Shown one piece after another: positions 19,463 through 34,654 of a stretch of 48,414 nucleotides of DNA. Position numbers and translations under genes: made by a program. A model generated the notes under the pieces. The model saw only the letters and a list, made by a program, of their open reading frames with translations. It was not told where the DNA came from and did not search any database. The number at the start of each line of letters is the position of its first letter. Within the stretch, counting starts at the first letter, position 1. The stretch lies in assembly GCA_023487205.1 (NCBI GenBank), contig JAMDBT010000018.1:1-48414 (forward strand), in the 5' to 3' direction. The DNA is from Thermoplasmatota archaeon. Lineage in GTDB: Archaea; Thermoplasmatota; Thermoplasmata; Thermoplasmatales; Thermoplasmataceae.

Positions 19463-20550
19463 AAGTTCCTTTTCAGAACCTCAGGGCACTGTATCGGGAA
19501 CTGAAGGACGATCTGGATTCCGCGTATTTCAGGGTGATGGAACACGGAAACTTCATTCTAGGGGAAGAAGTGAAACTCTTCGAGAAGGAGTTTGCGAACT
19601 ATTGCGGGTCGAAGTACTGTGTGGGAGTCGCGTCCGGGTTGGATGCACTCACACTCGCCCTGGAGTCCCAGGGGTTCAAGACGGGAGACGAAGTTATCGT
19701 CCCCGCCAACACATACATCGCAACGTGGATTGCCATTAGCAGGGCCGGCCTGGTTCCAGTTCCCGTGGAAGCACGCAAAGGAACCTTCCAGATGGATCAT
19801 GAAAAGATCGGGGATGCCATCACCGAGAGGACAAGGGCGATCATGCCCGTGCATCTTTACTTCCAAACGCCTGACATGGACCCCATACTTGAATTGGGAA
19901 GAGAGTCTGGTGTTAAAGTCATCTCGGATGCAGCACAAGCACACGGAGTTCGGTACAAGGACAGGATAGTGGGCTCACTTTGCGAGATCGAATGCTTCAG
20001 TTTTTTCCCAACGAAAAATTTGGGTGCTCTGGGAGACGGAGGGGCGATAACCACGAATAGTTCAGAGACTTATGAGAAGCTCCTGATGCTAAGAAACTAC
20101 GGCACTAAGAGAAAATACGTCAGCGAGATAATAGGGTACAACTCACGTCTCGATGAGTTGCAGGCGGCATTCCTCAGGGTCAAGATGAGTCGCCTGGAAA
20201 TGTGGAACCGGAAGAGGAGGGAATTGGCCGATCTCTACGCCATGGAGTTAGAGGACTCCGGTCTAGAGATTCCAAGACCACAACCTTACGCGTTGCCAAA
20301 CTGGCACATATACCCAGTGATGTCAGATCAAAGAGACAAAATCCAGAGCAAACTGAACAAAGCTGACGTAGAATCTATTGTACATTATCCGATTCCCCCA
20401 TATCTTCAGGGAGCCTACAAGCAAGAGCATTTCACCCGGTATGATTTTCCCATAAGCACTGAGATTGCGAACAATATACTGAGCCTTCCCATGCACCCAT
20501 ACATGGGCAAGGAGCAAGTTGAATATGTATCCGAAGTGATCAGGTCTTAG
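19459..20550 (+). CDS. DegT/DnrJ/EryC1-family sugar 3-aminotransferase (FdtB/QdtB-like)
   Basis: The 363-residue PLP enzyme would aminate a dTDP-3-keto-6-deoxyhexose, giving dTDP-3-amino-3,6-dideoxy-galactose or -glucose. Visible motifs are VPFQNLRALYRELKDDL at the start, HGNFILGEEVKLFE, CVGVASGLDALTLAL (cofactor phosphate region), NTYIATWIAI, ISDAAQAHG with the PLP-pyridine aspartate D157, and the Schiff-base lysine K186 in SFFPTKNLGALGDGG. YNSRLDELQAAFLRVKM and HYPIPPYLQGAY follow. The ketoisomerase immediately before it is strong evidence for C3 amination rather than C4. No N-acetyltransferase or N-methyltransferase partner was recognised. The end overlaps the convergent FkbM gene by 11 bases. 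Confidence 0.92.
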   Translation: MKVPFQNLRALYRELKDDLDSAYFRVMEHGNFILGEEVKLFEKEFANYCGSKYCVGVASGLDALTLALESQGFKTGDEVIVPANTYIATWIAISRAGLVPVPVEARKGTFQMDHEKIGDAITERTRAIMPVHLYFQTPDMDPILELGRESGVKVISDAAQAHGVRYKDRIVGSLCEIECFSFFPTKNLGALGDGGAITTNSSETYEKLLMLRNYGTKRKYVSEIIGYNSRLDELQAAFLRVKMSRLEMWNRKRRELADLYAMELEDSGLEIPRPQPYALPNWHIYPVMSDQRDKIQSKLNKADVESIVHYPIPPYLQGAYKQEHFTRYDFPISTEIANNILSLPMHPYMGKEQVEYVSEVIRS

Positions 20551-21490
20551 CGCGACCGGCGAATTTCCTTCTCGCCTTGATGTGCCCCAAAATCCGTTGT
20601 TCTCCCGTCAGGATATTCACGGAGTAGCGAGGCAAGGCAACCTTCACATGAAAACCGGCATTTCTCAGCAATCTGGGAATCTGCCCTTTTCCATGAAAGT
20701 ACTCAACATGTACGAGGTCAAACTTTTCAAGAGTCTTAGGATCAATAGAACTGAACAGACCAACTTCACAACCCTCGCAGCTGACTTTAAGAATTGCTCC
20801 CGGGCCTATTCCATAGGTTCTTACTAACTCCTCTAAAGACGTCTTGCTAACCGGGGGCTCATAATGACTGGTCATTGTCTTCCCCTCAAATACTTGCGAA
20901 TCGAAAATCTTGCTTGTTTCACTGTTCTCCATCCTGGTGGCTTCGATCCCCATGGGAAGGAACTCTATCTTGTTCGTCAGACCATTTAGGCTTACGTTTT
21001 CTAATCCCATTGCATACCTGACTGGGTCTGGCTCCAAACCGATTACCCATAAGGCCCCTTTGCATGCAAAATAGAGACACGAATCCGCCACCCCTGCACC
21101 GATGTCCAGAACCATCCTGTTCTTGCAGTCTAGCCAGTCATACCGATTTCCCTCGAAAACATACTGAAAAGCATACCTGTAATTACTTATCCTGATTTCT
21201 TTCCCAAGCTCACCACAATTGACGGTAAATTGGACATCCTTTTCTTCTGCTTTTATCTTTTGAACAAAATCTTTCATGCCATTTGCGAGGAAGGAATTCC
21301 CATTCTTTAGAGTGTATGAACCATTCCCCTTACGCACAAAACTCTTCAAGAGCGAAGCAAGAGGATTTCTGAGGTTTCTCCTAAAGAAGACATACCTAAG
21401 ATACCCCCCATAGGGCATCAAAACCAACGTTACGAATTTAGCGAGCCGTGTCTCGTATTTTGAAGTGCTCACGAATTCCACCGCAGACAT
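20540..21490 (-). CDS. FkbM-family methyltransferase
   Basis: The 316-residue protein has the FkbM-type SAM domain. VLDIGAGVADSCLYFA (127-142) is motif I, VIGLEPDPVRYAMGLENVSLNGL follows, then SLEELVRTYGIGPGAILKVSCEGCEVGLF and FDLVHVEYFHG. This is the usual order of FkbM blocks, with the C-terminal DhE-type acidic region. Family members O-methylate sugars or polyketides, and the setting in a glycan locus suggests a sugar. The first 110 residues are basic with no family match and may bind the lipid-linked acceptor. A TATA-like box upstream indicates separate transcription from the epimerase gene 230 bases upstream. Confidence 0.85.
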   Translation of the reverse strand: MSAVEFVSTSKYETRLAKFVTLVLMPYGGYLRYVFFRRNLRNPLASLLKSFVRKGNGSYTLKNGNSFLANGMKDFVQKIKAEEKDVQFTVNCGELGKEIRISNYRYAFQYVFEGNRYDWLDCKNRMVLDIGAGVADSCLYFACKGALWVIGLEPDPVRYAMGLENVSLNGLTNKIEFLPMGIEATRMENSETSKIFDSQVFEGKTMTSHYEPPVSKTSLEELVRTYGIGPGAILKVSCEGCEVGLFSSIDPKTLEKFDLVHVEYFHGKGQIPRLLRNAGFHVKVALPRYSVNILTGEQRILGHIKARRKFAGRAKT

Positions 21491-21720: not shown

Positions 21721-22614
21721 TCAAGATTCCTTTTCCAGAGCTGCCACTTCCTTGATTCCTGCCTCTAGGTCAAATAGGTGTTTCCATCCCGTATCCTGTT
21801 GAATTTTAGCAATATCAGCTTGAGTAAACATCTGGTAGTTCCTCAGCGGATTGCTTACGTGAACTATCCTGGAATTAGATTCGGTAATATTTTTCACCTT
21901 TTGCGCAATATCGTTGAAAGAATGAGTTGTGCCTGATCCAACGTTATAACTATTTCCAGACTTACCCTTCTCAAATGCAGCAATTGTTCCTTCAACCGTA
22001 TCCTTAACGTATATGAAATCCCTCGACTGAGTGCCGTCGCCGTATACCACTATGTCTTCAGATTTCAGAGCGGCGGTCACGAACCTCCAAACGACACTCG
22101 CATACAGGCTCTTTGTGTTCTCTCCCTTTCCGTAGGTGTTGAAATACCTAACCGAAACGACCTCTGTTTCGTTCCTGTTGCTATAATATTTCCCTAACAG
22201 TTCCCCGAATACCTTGGTCAGGGGGTACAGGTTAACGTGATTCAATGAAATCCCGGATTCACTTACCTTCTCTTTCAGATCACCGTAAGTCGAAGAGGAA
22301 GAAGCAAACACAACCCTGGGCACACCGTTTTCTGAGGCACACTTCAGGACATTCAAAGTCCCCATCACATTTACCGTAAATCCGTCGACTGGATCTTTCT
22401 CGAACTGTGGCGGCGAAGTGATTGCAGCGAGGTGAAAGGCTCCATCGATATTCCTGGAAGCCTTGCGAACCAGGTCGTGATCGCAAACGCTTCCCTTGAA
22501 GTCCGGCTTGCCGGCAACGTCGAGTGTCACCACTTCGTTTCTCAAGCTTCTAAGGTGTTGGACGAGGTATCTCCCAATGAATCCCTCTCCGCCCGTAACA
22601 AGGTATCTTGCCAT
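21721..22614 (-). CDS. NAD-dependent nucleotide-sugar epimerase/dehydratase (GalE-like SDR)
   Basis: The 297-residue extended SDR protein opens with YLVTGGEGFIGRYLVQHL. It has the VTLDVAG strand for NAD ribose, FHLAAITSPPQ, a VFASSSSTYGD stretch and the catalytic Y130-x3-K134 in YPLTKVFGELLG. VRYFNTYGKGE, VYGDGTQSRDFIYVKDTV and YNVGSGTTHSFND complete the pattern of UDP-hexose 4-epimerases and related archaeal enzymes. Likely substrates are UDP-glucose or UDP-glucuronate made by the genes upstream in the same run. Exact specificity (Glc, GlcA or N-acetylhexosamine) is not determinable. It starts with ATG and lies 75 bases after the small unknown gene. Confidence 0.88.
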   Translation of the reverse strand: MARYLVTGGEGFIGRYLVQHLRSLRNEVVTLDVAGKPDFKGSVCDHDLVRKASRNIDGAFHLAAITSPPQFEKDPVDGFTVNVMGTLNVLKCASENGVPRVVFASSSSTYGDLKEKVSESGISLNHVNLYPLTKVFGELLGKYYSNRNETEVVSVRYFNTYGKGENTKSLYASVVWRFVTAALKSEDIVVYGDGTQSRDFIYVKDTVEGTIAAFEKGKSGNSYNVGSGTTHSFNDIAQKVKNITESNSRIVHVSNPLRNYQMFTQADIAKIQQDTGWKHLFDLEAGIKEVAALEKES

Positions 22615-23201: not shown

Positions 23202-24023
23202 CTATTTCGAATCGAAAGAAGAGGCGAAGCGCTTATCCCGTGATACGTACTCCATGAACGTTTTTATCCACAGTTCCTTGGTTCCAATGTCATGCCTGGT
23301 TCCGTTGAACGAGGTCGCGTAGACGTCCCTCTTCCGCACCTGGTCAAGGAGGGCGTCGGTAAGCTGGTATTCCCCATTCCTGCCGGGTTTTGTGGACCTG
23401 ATGGAGTTGAATATGTCAGGCTCAAGCACGTAAATTCCCGTGATGCCCAGGTCTGATTTTGTTTCGGACGGCTCAGGCTTCTCCAGGAGATTCCTGATAG
23501 CCCAGGTTCCCGGTCCCACAGGATCTCCCTCCACCATCCCGTAGTCGCGCATCTTCTCCCGTGTAACCTTCTCAACGGCAATTGTAGGCTTGTCGTATCG
23601 ATCATACGCTTCGAGTATCTGGGAAGTGACCGTCTTATCCGTACCGCTTTCGTAGATTGTATCCCCGAGTAGGACAGTGAAAGGATCTTCACCGACGAAC
23701 GCCTCAGCTGTCAGGACTGCATTTGCGAGACCGATCTGCTTCCTCTGCCTGACGAAATAGATGTCCGGCATTTCGCTGAAGTATGACTCGTCCATGCTGT
23801 CGTCAAGGAAGTGCCTGTCGAAGTAATTGATTATTGCATCTTTCCCGGCGCCGACCACGATGACTATCTCATCAAGCCCCGATTTTACGGCTTCCTCGAC
23901 AACGTAGTGTATGACCGGTTTGTCCACAATCGGGAGCATTTCCTTCGGCTGCGCCCTGGTCAGGGGATAGAACCTGCTCCCTATTCCCGCGGCAGGGATC
24001 ACTGCCTTCCTCACCTTAGGCAT
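23202..24023 (-). CDS. galU: UTP-glucose-1-phosphate uridylyltransferase
   Basis: The 273-residue protein makes UDP-glucose from UTP and glucose-1-phosphate. It has the GalU signature AVIPAAGIGSRFYPLTRAQP followed by KEMLPIVDKPVIHYVVEEAV. Later blocks are EIVIVVGAGKDAI, YFVRQRKQIGLANAVL, FTVLLGDTIY, DYGMVEGDP, LEKPEPSETKSDLGITGIYVL and GEYQLTDAL. Ser replaces the usual Thr in GxGTR. The start overlaps the end of the UDP-glucose dehydrogenase gene by 8 bases, so the product and the next enzyme of the pathway are made from the same message. Confidence 0.95.
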   Translation of the reverse strand: MPKVRKAVIPAAGIGSRFYPLTRAQPKEMLPIVDKPVIHYVVEEAVKSGLDEIVIVVGAGKDAIINYFDRHFLDDSMDESYFSEMPDIYFVRQRKQIGLANAVLTAEAFVGEDPFTVLLGDTIYESGTDKTVTSQILEAYDRYDKPTIAVEKVTREKMRDYGMVEGDPVGPGTWAIRNLLEKPEPSETKSDLGITGIYVLEPDIFNSIRSTKPGRNGEYQLTDALLDQVRKRDVYATSFNGTRHDIGTKELWIKTFMEYVSRDKRFASSFDSK

Positions 24024-25236
24024 GGTTCAGCCCCACCGCATAGAACTTTTCTGAAATATCGGGCGATAGTATACGCCTCCCGTCGATCACGTTCCCCGTG
24101 AATCCCATGGTGCTCAGCCTCCCGAATTCAGGCCATTCGGTGGCAATTACTACAGTCCTGGATTGCTGAATGCACTCTTCCAGGCTGCCGCATCTCGTCG
24201 CGCCCTCGAAAGTCTTGACGACAGGATCATAAAAGTACACGCTTCGGTAGAGCGGAATCAGGGCCCTTACCAGCTTTGCGGCCTGAGACTCGCGGATGTC
24301 ATCGGTGGAATCCTTGAATGCTACCCCCAGAACCGAGATGTCCGTTGCGTTTGAAGGCGGTTCCGCTCTCTTCACCATGTCCAGAAAGCGCGATATCCTC
24401 CCCTCGTTCACCATCCTCGAAGCCTCGACGATCTTCAGGGGATCGCCCTTCTCCTGTGCGAATGACAGGAGCGCCTCCGTATCCTTGGGGAAGCAGGAAC
24501 CACCGTATCCTATCCCGGCTTTGAGGAAGTAAGGAGCAATCCTCCTGTCCATTCCCATCCCCTTCGCAACAACTTCCACGTCTCCGCCTGGAATTCTTTC
24601 ACAGAGATTGGATATCTCGTTTATGAACGATATCTTGATCGAAAGGAACGCATTGCTTGCGTACTTTATCAGTTCCGCGTTTTCGTTGTTTGTGCGCAGC
24701 ACTGGCGATCCCGTGAATTTCCATATATTCTCAACCAGTTGAGCTTCTGGCGCGCCTGCGGATCCGACCACGATCCTGTCCGGATGCCTGGTGTCCTCAA
24801 CCGCACTTCCCTCCCGGGTGAATTCCGGGTTTGATACGACCCTCATTCCGGCTCGTTCCCTCACCATTGATGCGGTTCCGGGAAGCACGGTGCTCTTGAT
24901 CACAATAACCGTGTTTGCATCAACCGAAGAAACTGATTCAGAGGCGCTGACTACGTAACTCAGGTCGATCTTGCCTCCTCTGTTGGGGGTGGGAACACAG
25001 AGGAAGCACGCCGCAGAACCCCTGAGCTGTTCGAACGACGAGGAAAAGTGAATATTCTCCCTGTTCCGTGTCAGGGCTTCTTTCAAGCCCGGCTCGTATA
25101 TGGGCGGCTCTCCCCGGGACAGTGACTCGATCTTGTCCCGATCCACGTCCACAGCGATAATTTCATTGCCCGCCTCTGCCAGTACCGCAACTGTGACGCT
25201 ACCCACATATCCAAGACCCACGACACCGATCTTCAT
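24016..25236 (-). CDS. ugd: UDP-glucose 6-dehydrogenase
   Basis: The 406-residue enzyme oxidises UDP-glucose twice to UDP-glucuronate with NAD. It has GVVGLGYVGSVTVAVLAEAG (4-23, NAD-binding), the VDVDRDKIESLS strand, EPPIYEPGL, LCVPTPNRGGKIDLS and VIKSTVLPGT. SNPEFTREGSAVED and RIVVG follow, then the active-site segment GIGYGGSCFPKDTEAL with the nucleophile C248 and K251. The C-terminal domain has VLGVAFKDSTDDIRES. It matches the standard Ugd/AglM type, not the WecC type seen at 45548. It overlaps galU by 8 bases downstream and the UXS-like gene by 4 bases upstream. Confidence 0.95.
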   Translation of the reverse strand: MKIGVVGLGYVGSVTVAVLAEAGNEIIAVDVDRDKIESLSRGEPPIYEPGLKEALTRNRENIHFSSSFEQLRGSAACFLCVPTPNRGGKIDLSYVVSASESVSSVDANTVIVIKSTVLPGTASMVRERAGMRVVSNPEFTREGSAVEDTRHPDRIVVGSAGAPEAQLVENIWKFTGSPVLRTNNENAELIKYASNAFLSIKISFINEISNLCERIPGGDVEVVAKGMGMDRRIAPYFLKAGIGYGGSCFPKDTEALLSFAQEKGDPLKIVEASRMVNEGRISRFLDMVKRAEPPSNATDISVLGVAFKDSTDDIRESQAAKLVRALIPLYRSVYFYDPVVKTFEGATRCGSLEECIQQSRTVVIATEWPEFGRLSTMGFTGNVIDGRRILSPDISEKFYAVGLNHA

Positions 25237-26162
25237 TTAGACCTCAGCCTGAACCAGTTGATTGTCTTTTCCACCCCGTCTTCCAGGGAAGTCCTCGGTT
25301 CCCAGTTCAAAAGTTTCTTCGCCTTTCCAATATCAGCGGAACGCCGTTCCGGATCGTCAATCCTCTTCTCCGTGTGCTCTATTCCTGAACTGCTTCCAGT
25401 AAGTGCCTTAATCTTTTGCGCCAGTTCAAGAACGGTAAACTCCTTCTCGGAACCCACGTTAAGCACCTCTCCCGATCCATCAGGACTGACGATGAATCTC
25501 CATGATGCCTCAAGCCAGTCATCCACGTACAGGAACGACCTGGTCTGATCCCCTTTCCCGTGCACGGTTATGTTCTCCTCCTTAAGCGCCTGTGAAATGA
25601 ACCTGGGTATTACCCTGCCGTAAAGGCCGTCTTCCCTTATTCTAGGACCGTATACGTTGAATGGTCTCTCTATCCTCACGTCAAGCCCATACTGCCTGTG
25701 ATATGCCATTGCGATGGCCTCAGAGAATCTCTTGCCCTCGTCGTAGCAACTCCGAATTCCATTGGGACTGACGTAACCGTTATACGATTCAGGGGTGGGA
25801 ATAACCTGTGCGTTGCCGTACACTTCCGAAGACGAGGTGTAGAAGAACAATGCGCCAGATTCTCTTGCAATGTCCAGCATTCTTATGGTGCCCGTAGAGT
25901 TCGACATCAGGGTGGCAACGGGATTCATGGAATAATCCTCCGGGGAGGGACGGGACGCGAGATGAGCCACCAGATCGAAATGCACTTTGGAGACGAAATC
26001 TTCAATTCTCTTCCTTACAAATGTCACTTCGTCCCCGTACGAAATGTCCTTACTTGTGGAAAGATCATCAACGACTGTCACGTCATACTTCTCTTTCACC
26101 AGCTTGGTCACAAGGTAATAACCCAGGAAACCGTTTCCACCTGAAACAAGTGCCGATTGCAT
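25233..26162 (-). CDS. UDP-glucuronate decarboxylase-like SDR (UDP-xylose synthase family)
   Basis: The 309-residue SDR protein has SGGNGFLGYYLV (7-18), VVDDLSTS, HLASRPSPEDY and SSSEVYGNAQVIPTPESYNG. It continues with the UXS hallmark RSCYDEGKRFSEAI with Y140 and K144, then ERPFNVYGPRIREDGLYGRVIPRFI and VHGKGDQTRSFLYVDD. UDP-xylose synthases carry the RSCYDEGKR motif and the catalytic Glu in the PE.Y.G loop (here E125). Coupling by a 4-base overlap to UDP-glucose dehydrogenase supplies its expected substrate, UDP-glucuronate. A 4-epimerase or UDP-apiose-type product remains possible. It is the first gene of the operon and has a well-placed TATA-like box. Confidence 0.85.
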   Translation of the reverse strand: MQSALVSGGNGFLGYYLVTKLVKEKYDVTVVDDLSTSKDISYGDEVTFVRKRIEDFVSKVHFDLVAHLASRPSPEDYSMNPVATLMSNSTGTIRMLDIARESGALFFYTSSSEVYGNAQVIPTPESYNGYVSPNGIRSCYDEGKRFSEAIAMAYHRQYGLDVRIERPFNVYGPRIREDGLYGRVIPRFISQALKEENITVHGKGDQTRSFLYVDDWLEASWRFIVSPDGSGEVLNVGSEKEFTVLELAQKIKALTGSSSGIEHTEKRIDDPERRSADIGKAKKLLNWEPRTSLEDGVEKTINWFRLRSK

Positions 26163-26205: not shown

Positions 26206-26454
26206 CTATGACTCTCTCTTGACTTTTCCTAGAAGCCCATTCCCGATCGTCTTCATTCGGCATGATTCTTTGCGGTCTTCATGTTTCGATTTTGATCTTG
26301 ATTCCGTGAGAAGGAACCTCAGGGTCTCACGGAAGAGACCGACGGCGGAATATCCATATGCGGTCATCAAGCGGATGTTCCATTTCTCAAATGTTAAGTC
26401 ACCCTTCATCGGGATGGCAATAATGAAATTCGTGTTCGTACGCTTTCCCTTCAA
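26206..26454 (-). CDS. Possible small ribbon-helix-helix (CopG-like) DNA-binding protein
   Basis: The 82-residue ORF starts with TTG. Residues 9-51 fit a ribbon-helix-helix layout: a short beta strand (NFIIAIPM), a first helix (LTFEKWNIRLMTAYG), then the typical turn and second helix (YSAVGLFRETLRFLLTES), resembling 'EYGYS.SELIREALR.LL' of CopG/Arc-type proteins. The tail is strongly basic. No other gene occupies this gap. It lies 43 bases upstream of the UXS-operon start and downstream of the radical SAM operon, so it could regulate either. No recognisable promoter precedes it. The call rests on pattern alone and could be chance. Confidence 0.42.
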   Translation of the reverse strand: MKGKRTNTNFIIAIPMKGDLTFEKWNIRLMTAYGYSAVGLFRETLRFLLTESRSKSKHEDRKESCRMKTIGNGLLGKVKRES

Positions 26455-26505: not shown

Positions 26506-28053
26506 CTACACGTGATCTAGACCAACAACTGCTGATCCATACCCGACGACGGCGTCGTAAGGATTGCACTTAGAAGACTTTCGAAGAGCCAAGCGTGCGC
26601 GTCTGTCGAGCAACTGTCTAGTCGCAGTCCGGAGTTCTGGAGCGTCATTCCATCTAGGATCTCGAATGCGCATTTTCAGCTGTTCACTCAACGGGGCAAA
26701 CCGACGCTCGGAGACGCCGGATAAGGCTGCCCAGCGGCCTACTGGAGTTATTTCTTCCCATCGAGAGGCGGTCGTCTCTTCGAATCGCTTCCCGGCGCGC
26801 AGAGTTTCTTCCAAGACTAACTTGGCCATTTCAAAACTGTCACGTAGATTGTTGTGTTCCTGACGTACGTAAGAGATAGGGGATCTTAAGATCATGGAGG
26901 CGACCAAGTTTGGAAGAACGGGCGTTAGTCCCAATCCTGTCCATTCCTCGCTCTGTTCTGCAACAAGTGTTGCGAACGGTCCTAGCAATGCTGCAAATGG
27001 TCGTATCGCGTCGTCGAGTTGACCTGGGGCGTCACGCCTTAAATCGTTGAGCCTGTCCCAAGGGACGCTCTCCACGGGTCCAGGCATTCCATCTTCCTGC
27101 CGCCTAGTAAAATAGTCCCTCATCCATCTCCCAAGAGCGGCACCATGCTCGGTCCATTGGAACGCCCCTGATGGAGCTATCTGCACATCGAGAGAAGGAT
27201 TGTAGCTACGAGCCAAGAGTCCCACCATACGCTTGTAGTAGTTGCGTTTCTTGCGATCTCCATGCCAGCGGTGGAGAACAGCGCCTCTGGTAAATCCGAC
27301 TCTAGAACGAACGTCTTGATTAAAGGACATCGCCCAACTATGAAACGAGTCACGGAAGGGGGTTGCTGCACCCACAGAGTTTGTGACGCACGGCGATGAT
27401 AGATCTCCCATCATTCCATGAGCCATGAGATGGTCTCCGCTTCCTGCAATTGAACGGTCGTAAAGACCGTGCTTCAAGATTAAATCCTTCCGAGCTGCCC
27501 ACGCATAACCCGAGTGCCCGTGTCTATCGAAGTCACCCGAAAGGTATAGGCCAGGATGGTTATATGCAACCGAGGCAAATCCGGACCAAGCGATGCCCCG
27601 GCCGCGGAATTGCTTGGCACCTTTCGGAAGCCAGAGTGCCAAGTCAAATGGCTGAACAATAGGGAAATCATCTAAGAGGTTCGCAGTTTCCACCGCCCAG
27701 CGTGGATTCTCGAAAAAGATATCTGTGTCAAGCCAAGCAACTTTTCTGCAGGAGTTTGGCAGATGCTCAATCGCAACATTGAGCAGACGCTCCTTTTGCC
27801 ACATGACGCTAGGACAGCGAACGTGGAGGATTCGGTCTGATTTAGGTAACAAGAAAGGACGCTTTCCGAAGGCCCCCTCTACTAAGAGCATCTGAATCCC
27901 AGATGCCTCCATGACGGAGATATACGATTGAAATGCCTTGAGCTTGCTCGCGTATCCTTCAGAATCGAAATATGCCGAAACGACCCATAGGTCATTTGAC
28001 GCCTCGTAAACATCAGCGGGGATAATCGACAGCTGCTTCCTCCCGGATGTCAT
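26506..28053 (-). CDS. GT-A-like glycosyltransferase with a C-terminal domain of unknown function
   Basis: The 515-residue protein's N-terminal half (about 20-280) resembles a family mostly seen in bacteria. It has DLWVVSAYFDSEGYASKLKAF, VMWQKERLLNVAIEHLP, the DxD-like VAWLDTDIFFENPRWA (D109, D111), GYAWAARKDLILKHGLYD, the GSGDH motif (204-208) and VLHRWHGDRKKRNYYKR (259-275). This pattern suggests a nucleotide-sugar-dependent GT-A transferase. The C-terminal 230 residues are predicted helical, Arg-rich and unrecognised. The start overlaps the radical SAM gene's stop by 4 bases (28050-28053), so the pair forms an operon. Arg codons in the first 210 residues are mostly CGN, unlike neighbouring genes, which suggests horizontal transfer. 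Confidence 0.7.
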   Translation of the reverse strand: MTSGRKQLSIIPADVYEASNDLWVVSAYFDSEGYASKLKAFQSYISVMEASGIQMLLVEGAFGKRPFLLPKSDRILHVRCPSVMWQKERLLNVAIEHLPNSCRKVAWLDTDIFFENPRWAVETANLLDDFPIVQPFDLALWLPKGAKQFRGRGIAWSGFASVAYNHPGLYLSGDFDRHGHSGYAWAARKDLILKHGLYDRSIAGSGDHLMAHGMMGDLSSPCVTNSVGAATPFRDSFHSWAMSFNQDVRSRVGFTRGAVLHRWHGDRKKRNYYKRMVGLLARSYNPSLDVQIAPSGAFQWTEHGAALGRWMRDYFTRRQEDGMPGPVESVPWDRLNDLRRDAPGQLDDAIRPFAALLGPFATLVAEQSEEWTGLGLTPVLPNLVASMILRSPISYVRQEHNNLRDSFEMAKLVLEETLRAGKRFEETTASRWEEITPVGRWAALSGVSERRFAPLSEQLKMRIRDPRWNDAPELRTATRQLLDRRARLALRKSSKCNPYDAVVGYGSAVVGLDHV

Positions 28054-29819
28054 ATCGCAAATCCTCCAGTCACATCATTGGAGGATCCAGTGACATGTGA
28101 AGCTGGCTCTGTTCTGAGTTCGGCGACGCAGTTCCTCCACCGGACCCGAGTTGGAGGTTCTCCCTGAGAGTAGAATACGAGCCCGTCAAGGAATTCCATC
28201 ATTGGGAAGTCACCTAACCGCCCCCCCATTAAGGTTGTTCGCACAACTTCAATTTCTCTGTCATGACCGACGTGGATGTGAATGCTTCCTGGAAGCGCTT
28301 TTCTGATTCTTGTCTCTATATCCGCAAGAAACCTATCGATTGTTTCACCAGCAGGTCGCATGATGGTTCCAGGCACGTCTCCATCAAGCCACATTTGGGC
28401 AAAGACCTGTCCGCGCAAACTTGCGCGATATGCATCTCTCAAACTTTTGCTAACTGTCCCTCGGTAGATCACAGAAAAGGTTGAGTCTTTACCCTCAAGA
28501 GTGACCCTGGATTGAGTCTGAGATTGAAGCAATCCACCGTGAATCTCTGTAGCCGTCTGAATAGAACGGGTAATACTAGTGTGGCTGACTGAGGCGCGAT
28601 CATAGACGGGTAGTTTTCGTCCGAAGCGCTGTGCCAACTCTAATCCACGCTTCGTCAGTAGAATATTATCCATTCCAACGTTCGCAGGAGATGGAACTTT
28701 GTCGCGTTCAGAGTGTCGAATAAAGGCGATGACACTGCTCCTATGGTCTAGTTCTCCTAGGATGTTCAGCACGGGATCTCCAATTACGCTGTTACTATTC
28801 TCGCGGGTTTCATTCAGCGTAGGTGATAATTTGACCTTGGAAACCACTAGGCCCGAGGAATACGAGTCCTCGCTTGGTGGAGACTGCCAAAGGCCGAGCA
28901 GTTTCAATCGAAGCGTATCAACATTAATCTCCCCTACATCCTGCATCGCTGCAGATACCTCCTTTCTCAGTCTCATTGCGAAATCGGGGTGGCTAGCGAG
29001 GTAAGGGAGAACAGTCTCCTTCCAGTAACCAAAATTCACGCGATCGAATCCGAATTCGCGGAACAAGTGAAGGAAAAGAGGGATCTCGTGGAGATTAGAG
29101 GTTGTAATGGTCATATGACCCACAATAATCAAATTGGAATGAAGAGAGTCCCTCGCCCGTTTCATTCTCTTGATGTTATTGACCACCCTCTCGAAACTGG
29201 AACCCTTATTCACGGACTCGTGTCCTTCCCTCGTCGCTCCATTTAGGGAGACGATCACACTATGCGCGTGTTCGGCTAAGCGCTGCGCTCGAGTCTCGTC
29301 GATGAGGGTTCCGTTAGTCAAAATTGTGTATCTCTTCCCAATTTTCTCTAAGTAATCCATAAACTCAAGACACGGACGCAGCACAAGGGGCTCTCCGCCA
29401 CGAAGCATTATGGTCATGAATGGGGCGAGGTCAACGTTTCTGATGATGATCTTTGAATCGAGCAGAATCGGGTTTGCCGCATGATTTTGGGGGTTGTTGC
29501 ACATCACGCATCGAATGTTGCATGCTTCTCCGAAGCTAATGTGGAGTCGCTTCAACGAGTTATAGTCTATTCGCGCACTCTCGTAGCCATGGCGAACCGA
29601 GTGATTCTTGTCTAACAGGTTACAGGATTGATAGCAGGTCAGTTGGCCATTCAATGAGTCCGATCTAAGTCGGAGGGCTGAAGGCGAATTGACCAGTTCC
29701 CTCAGAGGAGTATCATGAATGTTGCCGTACGGTACAGGTCTCTGATGACAGCAAGCGAAGACTTCGCCGGACCTGTTGACGTAAATACCTTCCCAAAGAT
29801 ACGAGCAGAAAGTTCGCAT
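28050..29819 (-). CDS. SPASM-like / radical SAM / histidine phosphatase fusion protein
   Basis: The 589-residue protein has three parts. Residues 1-70 form a SPASM/twitch-like cluster module (C5, C23, C24, C62, C66; GEVFACCHQRPVPYGNIHDTPLRE). Residues about 88-290 are a radical SAM core with the 4Fe-4S motif CNIRCVMC (C100, C104, C107), a LRGGEPL motif (139-145) and YTILTNGTLID. Residues about 362-555 are a histidine phosphatase: IAFIRHSERD (R368, H369), R418 in SITRSIQTA, PAGETIDRF, and HVGHDREIEVV (H519, D520), which resembles branch 2 enzymes. Radical SAM/SPASM enzymes usually modify peptides or sugars; the phosphatase would remove a phosphate from a small molecule. Substrates are unknown. 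The ATG is supported by a TATA-like box. Arg codons are CGN-rich. Confidence 0.82.
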   Translation of the reverse strand: MRTFCSYLWEGIYVNRSGEVFACCHQRPVPYGNIHDTPLRELVNSPSALRLRSDSLNGQLTCYQSCNLLDKNHSVRHGYESARIDYNSLKRLHISFGEACNIRCVMCNNPQNHAANPILLDSKIIIRNVDLAPFMTIMLRGGEPLVLRPCLEFMDYLEKIGKRYTILTNGTLIDETRAQRLAEHAHSVIVSLNGATREGHESVNKGSSFERVVNNIKRMKRARDSLHSNLIIVGHMTITTSNLHEIPLFLHLFREFGFDRVNFGYWKETVLPYLASHPDFAMRLRKEVSAAMQDVGEINVDTLRLKLLGLWQSPPSEDSYSSGLVVSKVKLSPTLNETRENSNSVIGDPVLNILGELDHRSSVIAFIRHSERDKVPSPANVGMDNILLTKRGLELAQRFGRKLPVYDRASVSHTSITRSIQTATEIHGGLLQSQTQSRVTLEGKDSTFSVIYRGTVSKSLRDAYRASLRGQVFAQMWLDGDVPGTIMRPAGETIDRFLADIETRIRKALPGSIHIHVGHDREIEVVRTTLMGGRLGDFPMMEFLDGLVFYSQGEPPTRVRWRNCVAELRTEPASHVTGSSNDVTGGFAI

Positions 29820-29850: not shown

Positions 29851-29942
29851 TTTTTCCCTTTCTTGTAACAGTTCATTCTTATACACAGGGAAGGATATTG
29901 AATTGCCGAGTACAATTGCCGGAACGCGGGGCAGGCCGGATC

Positions 29943-30311
29943 ATGCACGGGAGAAGGGGTCTGGAAAACGCGAAATACGGGATGGAAGGAGAATTTCATG
30001 AATTTGCCTGTTTCCTTTCACAACGGTCGGCAGAAAAAGCTTTCAAGTCGGCGTACCAGAGACTCAAGGCCGATGTTGTAAGCCACTCCATCATTGTTCT
30101 GATACAGAGGTTCCCGCAAAAGAACAGATTTGACCAAAAGATTATGGACGAAGCGAAGGAGCTCGATCAGGCATACATTCCCACCAGATATCCCGACTCA
30201 TATCCTGAAGGTGCGCCGTTCATGATGTATAGTGAAGAACAATCAAGGAGGTTGATATCATTTGCTGAACATATCCTCAGAAGATGTGAAAGTATTCTTT
30301 CCGAAGTATGA
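29943..30311 (+). CDS. HEPN-domain protein (HEPN/MNT pair)
   Basis: The 122-residue protein fits the archaeal HEPN (PF05168-type) pattern: a first helix with ENAKYGMEGEFHEFACFLSQRSAEKAFKSAYQ, where CFLSQRSAEKA matches 'CF.AQQAAEKA' of the family. HSIIVLIQRF follows, then a second half with AKELDQAYIPTRYPDSYPEG and SEEQSRRLISFAEHIL. The R-x4-6-H RNase motif of active HepT toxins is not evident, so nuclease activity is doubtful. It overlaps the MNT gene by 50 bases, typical of the paired arrangement. The ATG at 29943 gives the usual HEPN length. The frame is open back to a TTG at 29898. Confidence 0.75.
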   Translation: MHGRRGLENAKYGMEGEFHEFACFLSQRSAEKAFKSAYQRLKADVVSHSIIVLIQRFPQKNRFDQKIMDEAKELDQAYIPTRYPDSYPEGAPFMMYSEEQSRRLISFAEHILRRCESILSEV

Positions 30312-30624
30312 TGTTCCGGAGCTAGTGAAGAAACTCCGTACCGCCTTTTCATTGATTTCAAAGAATTTGCGCTTAACGGACGCACGGCTTTTTGGTTCGT
30401 ATGTGACTGGGAATTACACTGCTCACAGTGACATAGACGTGCTTGTCGCTATCGACGGAAACGACAAGCGGGATGCGTATTCTCGCTGCTGGGACGCCAT
30501 CAGCATACCGGAACTGGAACTCCATGTCTACACGGCGATTGAAATTGAAAAGATGAAGCTCAACGGCAATCCATTTCTCGGGCGTGTGATGAAAGACTCC
30601 ATCGAGTTGCTTGGCGGAAAGTGA
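30262..30624 (+). CDS. Minimal nucleotidyltransferase (MNT) of a HEPN/MNT pair
   Basis: The 120-residue protein has the MNT pol-beta-like signature GSYVTGNYTAHSDIDVLV (45-62), with GS at 45-46 and the metal-binding D57 and D59. The next acidic strand may be in LELHVYT. In HepT/MntA systems the nucleotidyltransferase acts as antitoxin by AMPylating the HEPN partner; whether this pair works so is inference. The start is TTG within the HEPN gene, overlapping by 50 bases. A GTG at 30286 would shorten the overlap and is an alternative. The pair diverges from the radical SAM operon. Confidence 0.78.
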   Translation: MLNISSEDVKVFFPKYDVPELVKKLRTAFSLISKNLRLTDARLFGSYVTGNYTAHSDIDVLVAIDGNDKRDAYSRCWDAISIPELELHVYTAIEIEKMKLNGNPFLGRVMKDSIELLGGK

Positions 30625-34492: not shown

Positions 34493-34611
34493 CCTTTTCC
34501 GCCGGCATAATTCATTGATTCCAGTAACCTTGAGTATCTATTTACACCAATTGAACTGAACCCCTTAATTTTGGACAGAAATTCCACCTTCCAATGAGAC
34601 ATTTTCCTTCT

Positions 34612-34654
34612 ACCCCCTTTTCTTCTCTTTCCTTTTCTCCCTTCGTCTCACACT
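34612..34654 (+). repeat. Polypyrimidine tract upstream of a GT2 gene
   Basis: About 43 bases are nearly all C and T on the plus strand, with very few purines, in the divergent intergenic region between the GT-C-like gene and the GT2 gene. It is low-complexity sequence with strong strand asymmetry. A structural or regulatory role is possible but not shown. Confidence 0.55.

Follow-up and report, generated by a model that had tools for sequence, protein, structure and literature searches.

In one contig of a Thermoplasmatota archaeon (Thermoplasmataceae), we found a gene that joins a radical S-adenosylmethionine (SAM) enzyme to a histidine phosphatase and that, judging from its arrangement in the sequence, is translationally coupled to a gene for a predicted GT-A glycosyltransferase inside a glycan-biosynthesis cluster. 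The contig, JAMDBT010000018.1 of assembly GCA_023487205.1, was analyzed over its whole length of 48,414 nucleotides (hereafter, the window). The fusion gene (28050-29819, minus strand) is a single reading frame of 589 amino acids (a.a.) with an ATG start and no stop inside, in which Pfam and our own profiles place a SPASM-like domain, a radical SAM core and a histidine phosphatase. The partner gene (26506-28053, minus strand; 515 a.a.) also starts with ATG and has no internal stop, and ATGA at 28050-28053 is a 4-base overlap between the two. An earlier note, made from the sequence alone, had described this chain, its named cysteine, arginine, histidine and aspartate residues, and the overlap, and all of these were recovered. 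The exact pair looks unique to the window, and its best reading is a variant on known kinds of enzymes rather than something categorically new. We give slightly less than an even chance to the interpretation that the fusion is a bifunctional sugar-tailoring enzyme, serving an archaeal surface glycan through a UDP-glucuronate-type pathway.

The N-terminal half of the fusion (residues 2-313; 28881-29816, minus strand) can be assigned by sequence to the radical SAM superfamily with a SPASM/twitch domain. Two Pfam families matched above their cut-offs: SPASM (PF13186) at residues 5-66 (29622-29807, minus strand; 34.1 bits against 21.5, E 3e-8) and Radical_SAM (PF04055) at residues 94-235 (67.5 bits against 29.5, E 2e-18). 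C5, C23, C24, C62 and C66 of the SPASM-like domain are invariant across the alignments of relatives, as are C100, C104 and C107 of the core, which make up the CxxxCxxC motif for the radical-SAM [4Fe-4S] cluster (29499-29522, minus strand). The entire half matched our own profile, which was built with the window sequence included, at E 2e-142; its homologues elsewhere are standalone proteins of ~320-350 a.a., and the archaeal ones are 44-48% identical to it across the shared region. The top NCBIfam match of the fusion, NF033640 (N_Twi_rSAM), resembles it in having, by its name, an auxiliary Fe-S domain ahead of the radical-SAM core, but reached 78.5 bits, short of the cut-off of 170, and thus the fusion is not a member by score; we know of no fused phosphatase in that family. 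The top PDB match, by both sequence (E 4e-5) and fold (E 1e-6), was BlsE (7vob), a cytosylglucuronate decarboxylase that acts on nucleoside-linked glucuronate and, unlike our protein, has no fused phosphatase. DesII, a nucleotide-sugar enzyme, was also among the fold matches. A radical-SAM/glycosyltransferase protein of Wolbachia phage WO matched in the radical-SAM core only (residues 100-261, 30%).

The C-terminal domain (residues ~349-578; 28086-28775, minus strand) appears from its sequence to be a real phosphatase, despite a weak Pfam signal. His_Phos_1 (PF00300) matched residues 364-430 under the Pfam cut-off, and the domain scored alone remained slightly short of it (19.8 against 21.7). 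We consider the domain real because a profile made without the window gave it 66 bits, whereas the highest-scoring of 500 shuffles reached 4.3 bits. The four relatives in that profile were domains of the 1,102- and 1,106-a.a. proteins described below and standalone proteins from genomes G147 and G127. R368, H369, R418 and H519 align with conserved residues of these relatives, and D520 aligns with their H-D motif; the domain thus carries the RH motif, second arginine, second histidine and profile match of the histidine phosphatase superfamily. The earlier note had called it branch-2-like. The phosphatase assignment stands, but the branch signals are split, since the RHxxR motif (R368, H369 and R372) and the H-D motif are branch-2-like and PF00300, the profile that matched, is that of branch 1.

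A linker (residues ~314-348; 28776-28880, minus strand) connects these two homologous halves. The junction contains no stop and no ATG codon nearby, only TTG and GTG, and GTG codons at 325 and 350 of the fusion would permit an internal start. The earlier note had allowed that the fusion might be an assembly or frameshift artefact uniting two genes. Although the fusion was seen once, in one draft genome, this now seems extremely unlikely, judging from a frame that is open throughout, the absence of an ATG at the junction, and domain borders that agree with the homologues on either side. The contig is 48 kb long, and the 1.56 Mb draft genome is 96.5% complete and 0.08% contaminated.

The first ~320 residues of the partner protein are predicted to be a GT-A glycosyltransferase, as the earlier note had proposed. 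This assignment follows from the predicted fold and its PDB matches, with nothing from the sequence libraries: the protein had no match in Pfam, NCBIfam or PHROG, most of residues 20-320 were modeled at a predicted local distance difference test (pLDDT) score >90, and the top PDB matches were GT-A enzymes. Its predicted fold and DxD motif are shared with GT2/GT7 enzymes (ArnC, GtrB and beta-1,4-galactosyltransferase 7), although the identities in the fold matches are 9-14% and the partner falls in no family of the three libraries. The GT-A domain, also matched by a profile (residues 13-323; 27085-28017, minus strand), has the DxD at 109-111 and an HxWHG motif at 261-265, and 19 positions, including D109, D111 and H264, are invariant across 52 sequences of the family. 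The remaining helical extension (residues ~326-515; 26509-27078, minus strand) gave no Pfam match and no relative, and was modeled with low confidence (pLDDT mostly 40-60). Relatives of the partner, found in Burkholderia and Cupriavidus plasmids, Xanthomonas phage XaC1 and 90 viral contigs, are ~300-390 a.a. long and align only to its first ~320-340 residues; no clear relative was found among 400 genomes of the class Thermoplasmata. Three family members searched against PHROGs had no match, and three searched against Pfam had none above the cut-off. The partner is a representative of a GT-A family that is common in viral contigs and unrecognized by the family libraries used. Relatives of the radical-SAM/phosphatase fusion were not found near the viral copies of this family. 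A viral origin of the fusion itself was considered and rejected, as scans of viral contigs with the fusion or its relatives returned nothing, or two weak radical-SAM matches.

The two genes do not travel together. Co-occurrence in other genomes had been set beforehand as a test of the earlier note, and it failed: the fusion was absent from all other genomes searched (the 400 class genomes and a species-wide collection), and the GT-A family was missing at every other scanned locus bearing the radical-SAM family. A conserved two-gene unit was therefore rejected. When six genomes were compared for synteny, two from the same genus and four from the same family, only short matches resulted; none of the six shares the locus as a block.

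Among the 400 class genomes, strong matches to the radical half came from G000, G184 (two copies), G164 (two tandem copies) and G129 (a truncated copy); the three genomes other than that of the window carry the half unfused. In the species-wide collection, strong matches were found in the G184 contig (recorded as Methanomassiliicoccales archaeon E29_bin30), Methanosarcina sp. KYL-1, Fulvimarina, Aurantimonas, and Chloroflexi, Omnitrophota and Planctomycetota metagenome-assembled genomes (MAGs), after which the scores fall sharply. Plasmids of Candidatus Manganitrophus were one further source. The phosphatase fusion was seen in none of the relatives examined. The radical-SAM gene of Manganitrophus is whole in plasmid GAC2, but the records of GAC1 and GAC4 have it as two annotated genes (L023 8001-8971; L025 8001-8839), through natural decay or assembly indels. 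The truncated copy in G129 (L002 1495-2277) adjoins a QueD-like gene, and a QueD-like gene in G184 (L120 12749-13216) is one gene away from one of the intact copies there.

Most relatives of the radical half sit in glycan loci. The Manganitrophus locus encodes an APH-type kinase, the radical SAM enzyme, a phosphatase, a GT4 enzyme, a second kinase, more glycosyltransferases and an ABC transporter. The KYL-1 and G164 loci both contain a sugar dehydrogenase-GT2 fusion, the radical SAM enzyme, a GT2 enzyme, a second radical SAM enzyme, and a protein of 1,106 or 1,102 a.a., respectively, comprising kinase-like, unassigned, glycosyltransferase-like, GT2 and phosphatase parts. In both, the radical-SAM gene overlaps the gene for the dehydrogenase-GT2 fusion, a UDP-glucose-dehydrogenase-like domain joined to GT2, and the shared proteins other than the radical-SAM enzyme are 54-58% identical. 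This system resembles the window in that one locus combines the same radical-SAM family (~44% identity) with an H-D-type phosphatase, with glycosyltransferases and with a sugar dehydrogenase, but differs from it in that the phosphatase is fused to a kinase and glycosyltransferases instead of the radical-SAM enzyme, and in that the GT-A partner family is absent. G184 has kinase, radical SAM and GT2 genes without a phosphatase, and glycosyltransferase and polysaccharide genes lie close by in the Omnitrophota and Planctomycetota loci.

The association with phosphatases was compared with the rate expected by chance. Genomes with the radical-SAM family have few PF00300 genes: one in G164 (at the locus), ~2 in KYL-1 (one at the locus), one in G129, and none in G184 or the Planctomycetota MAG. 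From these counts, and assuming a similar rate for Manganitrophus, we estimate that ~0.1 phosphatase genes would be expected within 10 kb over nine loci in all, compared with three loci observed to have one, the fusion not counted. Since KYL-1 and G164 share one homologous module, these amount to two independent cases plus the fusion, which is suggestive, not proof, of a link beyond chance. The rate also bears on whether chance domain shuffling appended a phosphatase, for example a general one, to a radical-SAM gene with which it has no common substrate. This would account for a fusion found once, for relatives of the radical half without a fused phosphatase, and for the unequal GC content at third codon positions of the two halves (0.57 versus 0.44). 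It is at odds with the excess of phosphatase genes near the radical-SAM family and with the retention of all the catalytic residues, and we consider it rather unlikely.

The genes downstream of the pair form a run on the same strand: a short-chain dehydrogenase/reductase (SDR)-type sugar dehydratase/epimerase (25233-26162; Epimerase PF01370, E 2e-51), a nucleotide-sugar 6-dehydrogenase of the UDP-glucose type in a 4-base overlap with it (24016-25236; TIGR03026, 370 bits, above the cut-off), and a GalU-like UTP-glucose-1-phosphate uridylyltransferase (23202-24023; TIGR01099, 279 bits, under the equivalog cut-off of 326.8). A sugar epimerase (21721-22614) and an FkbM methyltransferase (20540-21490) are also on the minus strand, and elsewhere in the window are many glycosyltransferases, more nucleotide-sugar genes and a flippase. 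The SDR, dehydrogenase and GalU-like genes point to UDP-glucose and UDP-glucuronate. Because of these nucleotide-sugar genes, and because BlsE is the closest solved structure, we favor sugar tailoring with phosphate removal. The radical half would alter a sugar that carries phosphate or is linked to a nucleotide, most probably a uronic acid supplied by the GalU, UDP-glucose dehydrogenase and SDR genes. The phosphatase half may then render the step irreversible by stripping a phosphomonoester from the product or from a by-product that is released, and the GT-A enzyme may extend the same glycan by a sugar. For this radical-SAM family, the phosphatase would be one of several exchangeable partners, along with kinases and glycosyltransferases. 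We infer from these comparisons which substrate is used, by what reaction, and in which order the steps run. The earlier note had proposed making, dephosphorylating and transferring a modified sugar or peptide in one pathway; the sugar part fits the downstream genes and the glycan loci of the relatives, and the linking of all three steps stays conjectural.

Several observations weigh against sugar tailoring by the fusion. BlsE is distant (21% identical when aligned by fold), and the peptide maturases SuiB, SkfB and anSME are close behind it in the fold ranking. The phosphatase part of the predicted structure is poor (pLDDT mostly <50) and provides no usable phosphatase fold. In Manganitrophus, the phosphatase belongs to the plain branch-1 type and is not orthologous to the phosphatase domain of the fusion, and the KYL-1 and G164 loci, sharing their module, are not independent cases. 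The Chloroflexi and Aurantimonas/Fulvimarina relatives are in no evident glycan locus, and the fusion itself was found in this genome only.

Many SPASM radical-SAM enzymes act on peptides. The radical half might accordingly modify a peptide or surface protein that the GT-A partner then glycosylates, with a phosphorylated side chain or leader as the phosphatase substrate. Peptide maturases account for several of the closest solved structures by fold and for many of the top NCBIfam matches, the latter all far under cut-off. No convincing precursor-like gene was found, however: the longest small same-strand open reading frame (ORF) in the 344 bp that separate the GT-A and SDR genes (26206-26454, minus strand; 82 a.a., TTG start) had no relative at any of the fetched loci, is of a size attainable by chance, and is probably a chance ORF. 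Together with the location of most relatives in polysaccharide loci, this makes peptide maturation unlikely.

The proteins of KYL-1 and G164, and a 781-a.a. kinase-GT2-phosphatase protein in G296, combine kinase, phosphatase and glycosyltransferase domains in one chain, and the kinase and phosphatase genes of Manganitrophus flank its radical-SAM gene, one on each side. These arrangements would suit a scheme in which phosphate is a temporary handle: once a kinase has phosphorylated a sugar of the glycan under construction, the radical enzyme would edit this sugar and the phosphatase would remove the phosphate, the cassettes being fused in varying orders. Yet G184 has a kinase and no phosphatase match, kinase-glycosyltransferase proteins also occur without this radical-SAM gene, and a search of the window's genome with the KYL-1 kinase found no relative, an empty answer that is weak; we regard this scheme as improbable. 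In G296, the protein is encoded at L224 6138-8483 (plus strand), and the radical-SAM family was not found in the fetched 16 kb. Four Thermoplasmata loci (L219, L220, L221 and L223) have single ORFs of 1,630-1,737 a.a. with a central kinase-like domain and C-terminal glycosyltransferase domains, and L222 has two adjacent ORFs.

Keyword searches of a set of papers found no radical-SAM enzyme fused to a phosphatase, their one relevant match being tunicaminyluracil biosynthesis, and, as the earlier note had stated, no characterized system with this architecture is described in the literature searched. A survey of archaeal fusion proteins lists, for a Sulfolobus genome, a protein joining a histidine phosphatase with sulfate adenylyltransferase, and its main text makes no mention of radical SAM. 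Compared by gene class only, the tunicaminyluracil clusters (tunA-tunL) are similar to the window in having genes for a radical SAM enzyme (tunB), a histidine phosphatase (tunG), a glycosyltransferase (tunD) and epimerases (tunA/tunF) in one pathway (PMC6965331). They differ in that the genes are separate, the product is a nucleoside glycolipid, and tunG is reported to be non-essential (PMC6965331). The window might likewise serve a single small molecule in a nucleoside or glycolipid natural-product pathway, and the presence of all four gene classes in one cluster speaks for this. The dispensability of tunG, and the fact that the window genes scanned include no acyltransferase, deacetylase, pyrophosphatase or ABC export gene of this type, make it very unlikely.

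Scans of the window for bacterial sigma-70 promoters and terminators gave matches no commoner than in shuffles, and no structured RNAs or tRNAs were found in it. Divergent from the fusion gene are a HEPN protein (29898-30311, plus strand) and an MNT-like nucleotidyltransferase (30262-30624, plus strand), resembling a HEPN/MNT toxin-antitoxin pair. About 90 bases at 34549-34638 match three sites in a same-genus genome (G001) with 83-86% identity, with no tRNA or Rfam family there, and a short ORF near the contig end (47828-48160, plus strand) has a weak match to an IS110-type transposase.

To our knowledge, few descriptions exist of radical chemistry acting on surface glycans. In other microbes, genes of this radical-SAM family have phosphatases, kinases and glycosyltransferases as neighbors, which points to an undescribed sugar-modifying module. 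In a broader form, to which we assign a low probability, the four kinds of domain would be exchangeable cassettes of one glycan-editing system across archaea and bacteria. During assembly of the glycan, this system would phosphorylate a sugar, alter it by a radical reaction and take the phosphate off again, and the window protein would unite editing and dephosphorylation in one chain. The recurring set provides concrete genes and strains, including Methanosarcina sp. KYL-1, in which an unusual sugar and phosphate-dependent editing may be sought.

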